DNA of 64,000 nucleotides from Parapontixanthobacter aurantiacus (GTDB taxonomy: Bacteria > Pseudomonadota > Alphaproteobacteria > Sphingomonadales > Sphingomonadaceae), in contig NZ_WTYW01000001.1 in the NCBI RefSeq assembly GCF_009827635.1, forward strand, positions 762,001 through 826,000. Direction: 5' to 3'. The translations under genes and the position numbers were made by a program. How positions within the stretch are numbered: position 1 is the first letter of the stretch; each line of letters starts with the position of its first letter. Under the pieces are notes generated by a model. The model had not been told where the DNA came from. It ran no database searches and saw only the letters and a list, made by a program, of their open reading frames with translations. Below, piece after piece: positions 42,943 through 45,826 of the stretch.

Positions 42943-43090
42943 GGTTTTCTCCTATTTTCACAACTGAATACGATTAGCCGAAGCCTGTGGTTCCGAAGGG
43001 GCTGCTCCAGAAACTTGCGACGCAATGCCCCCTTTTATGACTTTGTTTAATGGCGAACTGCCTAGAAAAAGATGGAAATGACTTAAGTAA

Positions 43091-43105
43091 GAACATAAAT
43101 GGAAC
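43091..43105 (+). promoter_or_regulatory. LexA (SOS) box upstream of the rSAM-UdgX operon
   Basis: GAAC-ATAAATG-GAAC (43091-43105) is an exact GAAC-N7-GAAC direct repeat, the LexA-binding motif of alphaproteobacteria. It ends 13 bases before the start ATG. The right half-site is also part of an inverted repeat GGAACA-N6-TGTTCC (43101-43118), giving three half-sites in a row. A LexA dimer here would cover the likely transcription start or ribosome site. Confidence 0.72.
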
Positions 43106-43118
43106 ATTGAGGTGTTCC

Positions 43119-44363
43119 ATGAAAAATGAAACCATAATCGAGAGACTCGGAATTTTGGCCGATGCGGCGAAATATGACGCATCGTGTGCTTCTTCCGGAA
43201 CATCGAAGAAGGACAGCCGCTTGGGAAAGGGTATCGGCTCGACTGAGGGGATGGGCATCTGCCATGCCTATGCACCCGATGGACGATGCATCTCGCTTCT
43301 CAAGGTCCTTCTCACAAACCACTGCATCTTCGACTGTCATTACTGCGTCAATCGCAAGAGCAGCAACGTTCGTCGTGCGCGCTTCACGCCGCAGGAAGTT
43401 GCGGATCTGACGATCAATTTCTACCGCCGCAACTATATCGAAGGTCTTTTTCTCTCCTCGGGAATATTCAAAAGTTCCAATCATACGATGGAGCAGATGG
43501 TCGAAGTGGCTCGCATCTTGCGGGACGACTACGATTTTCGCGGTTACATCCACCTCAAGACCATTCCAGAAGCCGATCCCGAACTTGTTTATCGCGCAGG
43601 TTTGTATGCGGATCGGGTTTCGATCAACGTCGAACTGCCGACGGATAGCGGTTTGACAAGGCTAGCTCCTGACAAGAATGCCATGCAAATCGAAGGGGCG
43701 ATGGGGGGCGTGAAAAGCGCAATCACGCAGTCGAAGGATGAAATTAAGAGATTTCGCCATGCTCCGAAATTTGCACCTGCCGGACAATCCACGCAGATGA
43801 TTGTTGGGGCCGACGCCGCGACGGACTCTGATATCGTCGGTAAAGCGAGCCGTCTGTACGACTCTTTCAAACTGCGTCGGGTCTATTATTCGGCGTTCTC
43901 TCCCATACCTGATGCCAGCGCGGTGTTGCCATTGAAGAGACCGCCTTTGGTGAGGGAGCATCGCCTCTATCAGTCAGACTGGCTGATGCGTTTCTACGGA
44001 TACAAGCCGAACGAGGTCATGCAGGCAACGGAAGCTGACGGAAATCTTCCGCTGGACATCGATCCAAAGTTGGCTTGGGCTTTGAAATTTCGGGAATTCT
44101 TTCCGGTAGATGTCAATCGGGCGAGCAAGGAACGGCTTTTGCGCGTCCCAGGTCTTGGGGTAAAGGCTGTCGAGCGCATTATTACGGCGCGAAAGCACCG
44201 TTCGCTGACGCTAGACGATATCGCAAAGCTGACCGTATCGATTGCGAAAGTTCGGCCGTTTCTGATTGCGTCAAACTGGCGACCGACCACTTTGACCGAC
44301 CGTGCTGACCTGCGAACGCTGCTTGCACCTAAGTCCGAACAATTGGAACTGTTCGGCGCATGA
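43119..44363 (+). CDS. putative DNA modification/repair radical SAM protein (TIGR03916-like)
   Basis: A 414-residue radical SAM enzyme of the family genetically linked to UDG-like proteins. The cluster motif is C69-x3-C73-x2-C76 (NHCIFDCHYCVNR), preceded by YDASCASSGTS and GICHAYAPDGRCISLLKVLLT, typical of this family, and followed by FYRRNYIEGLFLSSG. The C-terminus (about 331-365) is a helix-hairpin-helix, LLRVPGLGVKAVERIITARK, expected to contact DNA. The reaction is unknown. The ATG has GAGGT 7 bases upstream, inside the region covered by the SOS half-sites. Its TGA overlaps the next ATG, so the product is made together with the UdgX fusion. Confidence 0.88.
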   Translation: MKNETIIERLGILADAAKYDASCASSGTSKKDSRLGKGIGSTEGMGICHAYAPDGRCISLLKVLLTNHCIFDCHYCVNRKSSNVRRARFTPQEVADLTINFYRRNYIEGLFLSSGIFKSSNHTMEQMVEVARILRDDYDFRGYIHLKTIPEADPELVYRAGLYADRVSINVELPTDSGLTRLAPDKNAMQIEGAMGGVKSAITQSKDEIKRFRHAPKFAPAGQSTQMIVGADAATDSDIVGKASRLYDSFKLRRVYYSAFSPIPDASAVLPLKRPPLVREHRLYQSDWLMRFYGYKPNEVMQATEADGNLPLDIDPKLAWALKFREFFPVDVNRASKERLLRVPGLGVKAVERIITARKHRSLTLDDIAKLTVSIAKVRPFLIASNWRPTTLTDRADLRTLLAPKSEQLELFGA

Positions 44364-45826
44364 CTGGGCGAGGAGAAACATGGCATCGGAGATACTATTC
44401 GATACATCTCTCCGCTCCCGACGACTTCGAAGAGTGGCGGGATAAAGCCCGCCGTCTCGTTCAATGCGGGATAAAACCGGATCAGGTCATTTGGATCGAA
44501 CCCGGCGGAAACTCGGACTTGTTTTCAGTAGCAGATGGGAAAGGCAGCACGGCGGAACTGCCAGACTTGCCTGATCATCCGTCACAAATCCGCGTCAGCA
44601 AGCGGTTCATGGCCGTGGCCAAGAACGCTTCTCTCCATTCCGATCCGGAACGCTTCGCTTTGCTTTATGGCTTGCTCTGGCGCTTGCAGACCAATGGCGG
44701 CTTGATGGAAGACAAGACGGATGACGACGTTCGCAGACTGGAGGAGATGGACAAGAACGTCCGCCGCGACAGCCACAAGATGCATGCGTTCGTTCGGTTT
44801 CGCGAAGTCGAGAGCGCCGGGTCTCCAGAGGGCAGAAACCGTTACGTCGCGTGGTTCGAGCCCGAGCACCATATCGTTCGCGCAAATGCAGGCTTTTTCG
44901 TAAGACGTTTCACGAACATGCAATGGTCTATCTTGACCCCCAAGGGATCGCTGCATTGGGATGGCGAAATTCTGAAGGCAGGGCCCGGTGCGTCGATTAC
45001 CGACGCTCCCGATGGCGATCCGGTAGAGGAGCTGTGGCGAAGATACTATGCGTCCATCTTCAATCCTGCGCGTTTGAAGGTTGGGGCCATGCTCAGCGAG
45101 ATGCCCAAGAAGTATTGGAAAAATCTGCCGGAAGCGGAGCTGATCCCTGCGCTGATTTCGGGAGCGCAGAAGCGAGAAGCTGAAATGGTTGCAACGGGTG
45201 AACGTGAAGAACTGGAAAGGCCGGACACCCTCGATCAACTAGATCGGGCCATTCACGGTTGCACGAACTGCCCAATCGGGTTGCTTGAGAACGAAGCCGT
45301 CGCCGGAGAAGGACCGGCTGATAAGGAAGCATTTTCCGGTCTCATGATCGTTGGCGAACAGCCGGGCGATCAAGAGGATCGAACGGGGAAACCCTTTGTC
45401 GGACCCGCCGGGCAGCTGCTCGATGGTCATCTCGAACGCGCGGGTATCGATCGTAAGTCGGCTTACGTCACTAATGCCGTCAAACATTTTAAATACGTTC
45501 AGCGAGGTAAGCGGAGAATTCACCAGTCGCCGGGTGCGAAGGAAATCGACACCTGCCGCTGGTGGCTTGAGAGCGAAACTGACCTAGTCGACCCCAAACT
45601 TATCCTTAGTCTTGGAGCAAGCGCGGCGCGAGCCTTTCTCGGAAAAACGGTCAGCATTACGAAGGTGCGCGGAGAGCCGATCAAGCTCGACGGCGGCAGG
45701 GAATTATGGGCGACCGTCCATCCATCCTACCTCCTGAGGCTCGATGGCGAAGCTGCAGACGCACAAGCCGAGGCATTCCAGCGCGACTTGGCCAGAGTTT
45801 CGGAGCGGCTGCGCGAACTTGCCTGA
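44360..45826 (+). CDS. udgX: DUF4130 - UdgX fusion protein (uracil-DNA-binding/crosslinking)
   Basis: A 488-residue two-domain protein. Residues about 1-260 are a DUF4130/TIGR03915-like domain (DFEEWRDKARRLV..., VSKRFMAVAKNASLHSD, MHAFVRFREV, WFEPEHHIVRANAGFFVRRF, MQWSILTPKGS), linked in other genomes to the rSAM gene. Residues about 285-488 are a UdgX-type UDG: CTNCPI cysteines for the iron-sulfur cluster, motif A GEQPGDQED (332-340), the insertion loop KRRIH (384-388) and VHPSYLLR with His454. UdgX forms a covalent bond to uracil-derived abasic DNA through the His of KRRIH, so His388 is the predicted attachment residue. Family knowledge gives this chemistry; the role of the fused N-terminal domain is not known. 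Confidence 0.88.
   Translation: MTGRGETWHRRYYSIHLSAPDDFEEWRDKARRLVQCGIKPDQVIWIEPGGNSDLFSVADGKGSTAELPDLPDHPSQIRVSKRFMAVAKNASLHSDPERFALLYGLLWRLQTNGGLMEDKTDDDVRRLEEMDKNVRRDSHKMHAFVRFREVESAGSPEGRNRYVAWFEPEHHIVRANAGFFVRRFTNMQWSILTPKGSLHWDGEILKAGPGASITDAPDGDPVEELWRRYYASIFNPARLKVGAMLSEMPKKYWKNLPEAELIPALISGAQKREAEMVATGEREELERPDTLDQLDRAIHGCTNCPIGLLENEAVAGEGPADKEAFSGLMIVGEQPGDQEDRTGKPFVGPAGQLLDGHLERAGIDRKSAYVTNAVKHFKYVQRGKRRIHQSPGAKEIDTCRWWLESETDLVDPKLILSLGASAARAFLGKTVSITKVRGEPIKLDGGRELWATVHPSYLLRLDGEAADAQAEAFQRDLARVSERLRELA

Follow-up and report, generated by a model that had tools for sequence, protein, structure and literature searches.

A predicted SOS-controlled operon of a radical SAM protein and a DUF4130-UdgX fusion in Parapontixanthobacter aurantiacus

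A two-gene operon in the genome of Parapontixanthobacter aurantiacus encodes a radical SAM (rSAM) protein and a protein in which a DUF4130 domain is fused to a UdgX-type uracil-DNA glycosylase (UDG) domain. The question it raises is whether this is an SOS-controlled DNA-damage operon, and which of its parts form the functional unit. We analysed it within a window of 64,000 nucleotides, the whole stretch of DNA under study, to which all positions refer. All three members of the NCBIfam trio TIGR03914, TIGR03915 and TIGR03916 were matched above their curated cut-offs. The trio is catalogued as linked, as an earlier note on this DNA had stated, but its entries give no tested function. We take COG4277 to be the rSAM/helix-hairpin-helix (HhH) family TIGR03916. 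Passages of PMC8565304, which do not name radical SAM, report that a two-gene COG1573-COG4277 operon is LexA-regulated in Bacteroidetes, call it UDG base excision repair, and cite an SOS-regulated UDG system for Verrucomicrobia (Erill 2016) and Alphaproteobacteria/Caulobacter (Paes da Rocha 2008). DUF4130 has been described as a predicted enzyme with a role related to mutagenesis, and has been linked to SplB-like radical SAM proteins and UDG (PMC3765255). The earlier note had called the system probably undescribed, which does not hold in view of these two sources. Its statement that the rSAM reaction and the DUF4130 role are not established agrees with the literature searched, in which we found no biochemical study, substrate or assay for either protein.

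LexA boxes at the operon and in its relatives

A LexA (SOS) box of the form GAAC-N7-GAAC (GAACATAAATGGAAC) was read directly at positions 43091-43105 on the forward strand. Thirteen bases separate it from the ATG of the rSAM gene at 43119, just as had been claimed. An alternative in-frame ATG at 43050 would place the box inside the open reading frame; the rSAM alignments of relatives begin only from 43119 and not from 43050. The bare GAAC-N7-GAAC motif occurred 3 times in the window (2.4 expected) and 143 times in the 2.9 Mb genome, compared to 60 times in the reversed control. Because this raw count is near chance in the window and only about 2-fold above the reversed control genome-wide, it was dropped as evidence, and the A/T-flanked subset was used instead, together with conservation in relatives. 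The subset GAACAWN5GAAC, which includes the operon box, had 18 matches in the genome and 1 in the reversed control. Some of these sites lie upstream of recA, uvrA, imuA-imuB and rmuC, with the identity of imuA judged from its sequence and an imuB-like neighbour. The operon box matches the organism's own recA, uvrA, imuA and rmuC boxes, and in the same genome the lexA match, too, is preceded by a GAAC-N7-GAAC motif, at a distance of about 65 bp. A promoter scan gave nothing above chance.

Two further boxes were noted in passing. A GAACAW-N5-GAAC box adjoins a ribonucleotide reductase large-subunit gene (L043, G000:C3:212323-212337), and a LexA-type box lies upstream of a SRAP (YedK-like) gene that appears split across two reading frames (L028/L307, G000:C1:572558-573214). 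A second SRAP gene, at C1:508927-509490, has no such split.

The earlier note had also proposed a scan for the box upstream of homologous operons. This was run on 80 loci from genome contigs, nearly all of them alphaproteobacterial by title and one from a Verrucomicrobiia MAG. In 77 of the 80 loci the alpha box lies no more than 330 bp ahead of the rSAM start (73 in the same orientation, 4 inverted only), against a background of 0.014 per equal stretch. Its commonest form was GAACATATAA-N-GAAC-like, 17-53 bases ahead of the alignment start. Among full-length rSAM loci of the class sample, 16 of 17 had the box, the window's own counted. Furthermore, the alpha box was absent from 20 loci outside the class, which were taken as beta/gammaproteobacterial on the basis of the window's phylum; here the E. 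coli-type motif CTGT-N8-ACAG was found exactly in 14 loci and with one mismatch in 3 more. Such an exchange of one box for a second LexA motif that is itself known speaks strongly for SOS control under selection. Of 15 UdgX genes that stand alone in the class, 14 were without the box, and SOS control thus tracks the rSAM-DUF4130 operon rather than UdgX as such. Two loci (L285 and L296) had neither type of LexA box; both carry the same short palindrome (CTCATCCAATGAG) a short way ahead of the rSAM gene.

A lineage-type box upstream of the start codon that is conserved in relatives, the mark of a LexA/SOS regulon gene, was found for this operon. Taken together, the conserved boxes and their exchange in the beta/gamma loci support the SOS control that had been claimed. 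Judged from these sequences, the operon is very probably switched on upon DNA damage, and the box is a predicted operator to which LexA would bind.

The radical SAM protein and the DUF4130-UdgX fusion

The rSAM gene (43119-44363, forward strand) encodes 414 aa and belongs to TIGR03916 (rSAM_link_UDG), which it matched with 582.6 bits (cut-off 343.5) over nearly the full length of the profile (1-399 of 415); PF04055 was also matched. The earlier note had read it as a radical SAM enzyme with a CxxxCxxC cluster and a DNA-binding HhH. The cluster motif (C69, C73 and C76; 43323-43346, forward strand) was there and is invariant in 88 of 88 sequences. The C-terminal HhH (44106-44198, forward strand) was marginal, with PF12836 reaching 26.6 bits at a cut-off of 27, and weak profile matches to the HhH regions of ComEA and RuvA were seen at the same end. 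The protein probably acts on DNA. Three further residues, C23, C48 and C57 (43185-43289, forward strand), are cysteines in all 88 sequences, which come from alpha, beta/gamma and other sources; every one of the six cysteines in the protein is invariant. C23, C48 and C57 are candidates for a second cluster or for active-site thiols. The AF2 model of the protein is an rSAM barrel with a mean pLDDT of 84, dropping below 50 at residues 24-47 (the C23-C48 region), and its best 50 fold matches were generic rSAM enzymes.

Like this protein, spore photoproduct lyase (SplB) belongs to the radical SAM proteins and has a link to DNA damage, and the enzymes associated with DUF4130 have been termed 'SplB-like' (PMC3765255). 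In contrast to SplB, however, the protein encoded here has an HhH end and three extra invariant cysteines. No spore photoproduct lyase entry was found by the profile search at E ≤ 0.1 or among the best 50 fold matches of the model, and membership in SplB was rejected on these two grounds.

Some relatives vary at this gene. In one (G182, locus L092) the rSAM gene has a large internal deletion, with the LexA box and DUF4130 kept. In sphingomonad relatives (L081, L163, L166, L169, L171, L173, L177 and L181), a small hemerythrin-like gene lies between the rSAM and DUF4130-UdgX genes, called by PF01814 (60.8 bits) for the L081 copy and by sequence likeness for the other seven. The hemerythrin-like protein could shield an oxygen-sensitive rSAM protein.

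The fusion gene (44360-45826, forward strand) encodes 488 aa and overlaps the rSAM stop by ATGA, an overlap that had been claimed and was read directly at 44360-44363. Its DUF4130 domain (44414-45136, forward strand) is a member of its family by both TIGR03915 (229 bits, cut-off 112) and PF13566 (136.8 bits, cut-off 27). The AF2 model of the domain had a mean pLDDT of 86, and neither PDB nor viral entries matched its fold at E ≤ 0.001. The DHH-phosphoesterase/RecJ fold came up repeatedly as weak matches with TM of about 0.2-0.3 and was not trusted. The most conserved residues (R98, D121, H139, R146, E167, R183, D220, Y229, FNPAR at 234-238 and E258) would be compatible with an enzyme or with a surface that binds DNA; DUF4130 could also be purely structural.

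The UdgX domain (45140-45799, forward strand) matched TIGR03914 with 289 bits (cut-off 190), and its best PDB matches were the UdgX structures 6iod, 6ajo and 8iie. Motif A, GEQPGD (residues 332-337; 45353-45370, forward strand), is present in 68 of 68 fused relatives, as is the histidine of the R-loop KRRIH (residues 384-388; 45509-45523, forward strand), here the predicted crosslinking His388. Motif B, HPS, is present as HPSYLLR, completing the sequence features of UdgX. These results confirmed the earlier identification of a UdgX-type UDG fused to DUF4130, including the numbering of His388, and the conserved motifs support a crosslink-competent UdgX half. GEQPG motif A, the KRRIH R-loop and HPS motif B are common to this domain and the Mycobacterium smegmatis UdgX (PMC10359453, PMC10776899). 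The two differ in setting: here the domain is fused behind DUF4130 in an SOS-boxed operon, whereas the UdgX chains of solved structures, at 205-229 aa, span roughly a single domain, and alpha copies without the fusion are mostly unboxed.

Core and accessory parts

When 349 genomes of the phylum were compared, rSAM was over the cut-off in 70, and DUF4130 was found in 70 of these 70. DUF4130 was over the cut-off in 73 genomes; the three without rSAM (G468, G484 and G552) belong to one genus and have an inverted alpha box 145-201 bp upstream of the DUF4130 match. In G468 and G484, DUF4130 is fused to UdgX, giving two genomes with a boxed DUF4130-UdgX gene and no rSAM. In the 289-genome class sample, DUF4130 was present in 17 of 18 rSAM genomes, and the exception (G045) is a fragmentary assembly. 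Of the 80 loci, 68 carry UdgX as a fusion with DUF4130; the fusion, which occurs in alpha and in beta/gamma loci, depends on lineage. About 20 genomes have rSAM and DUF4130 without UdgX over the cut-off (G252, G198, G175, G162, G271, G451 and 14 outside the class), and most of the loci inspected among them carry an SOS box. UdgX over the cut-off was also found in genomes without rSAM.

Since rSAM and DUF4130 are nearly inseparable and UdgX can be missing, we regard the pair as the unit and UdgX as its accessory. Judged from this distribution, UdgX is an optional add-on of some lineages and not part of the core. The families and their damage control had already been reported; the present comparison points to an rSAM-DUF4130 core with a dispensable UdgX. 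The operon of PMC8565304 likewise has a UDG-family gene and a COG4277 gene under LexA control, but its passages treat it as UDG-based repair only, and we found no mention in them of DUF4130, of its near-obligate pairing with rSAM or of UdgX being dispensable.

Possible functions of the operon

We lean towards an SOS-induced operon for processing DNA lesions, in which rSAM and DUF4130 form the core and, in some lineages, a UdgX half caps uracil-derived abasic sites. LexA would repress the operon via the box 13 bases ahead of the start codon. The rSAM protein would bind DNA by its HhH end and act on a damaged base or adduct, reversing or converting it by SAM-derived radical chemistry. C23/C48/C57 would probably assist, either as a second metal site or as active-site thiols, and DUF4130 would be the lesion-binding or second catalytic subunit of the enzyme. 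By analogy with characterised UdgX, the UdgX half would excise uracil, stay covalently bound through His388 and cap the abasic site while SOS replication proceeds. Deamination is fast for cytosines in UV dimers. In a speculative version, reversal of UV dimers would leave uracils that are then caught by UdgX, which would explain why a lesion-reversal enzyme gained a uracil trap in some lineages. The absence of spore photoproduct lyase among the best 50 fold matches of the rSAM model counts against the explanation favoured here, and with generic rSAM matches only, a lyase-like reaction is not specifically supported.

A bolder form of the same idea, which we offer tentatively, is that rSAM and DUF4130 may be an uncharacterised two-protein, oxygen-sensitive lesion-reversal enzyme with a second metal site, SOS-controlled and widespread in Proteobacteria. 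UdgX would then have been fused to it as protection from uracils or abasic sites left by the reaction.

It is possible, if rather doubtful, that UdgX and the rSAM-DUF4130 pair are separate, co-expressed SOS tools with no chemical hand-off, UdgX capping abasic sites and the pair repairing an unrelated lesion, for instance a crosslink or an oxidised base. The occurrence of the pair without UdgX and of UdgX without the pair, and the lineage dependence of the fusion, are consistent with such independence; however, a DUF4130-UdgX fusion in both alpha and beta/gamma loci suggests functional contact.

The earlier note had proposed that UdgX traps a uracil site covalently and that rSAM modifies or releases this adduct. 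Such a hand-off would suit an operon whose fusion partner retains the crosslinking residues, GEQPGD and the loop histidine being kept in all 68 fused relatives, but it is improbable given the UdgX-less genomes whose rSAM and DUF4130, where inspected, are mostly boxed, the UdgX genomes without rSAM and the two boxed DUF4130-UdgX genes without rSAM. Because the pair is the unit and UdgX the accessory, we do not accept adduct release as the core function.

A reading in which rSAM does not repair lesions but modifies a nucleotide or undamaged DNA, be it as base hypermodification or as defence, would accord with the NCBI family name 'DNA modification/repair', but is more improbable still in view of LexA boxes across classes, no family match to the PADLOC-DB models of known anti-phage defence, PHROG matches that are remote only, and three inspected phage-record matches, of which one proved to be a bacterial contig, another a faecal scaffold that is unverified and the third a short frame at the end of a phage.

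A phage origin was rejected, as one 'Acinetobacter phage' match is a bacterial contig with glyS/glyQ and viral contigs gave 2 rSAM relatives and 0 DUF4130 relatives. The very end of the Bacteroides phage BKO1-TP1 record (L305, 45684-46202) has a 172-aa DUF4130 frame, which may be packaged host DNA; a Mor-like regulator is on the same record.

For the SOS-induced lesion-processing operon that we favour, the comparison converts the vague notion of linked families into a testable split between an rSAM-DUF4130 core and a UdgX accessory. If a radical SAM protein does work on damaged DNA outside spores, ordinary bacteria would have one more kind of DNA repair chemistry.
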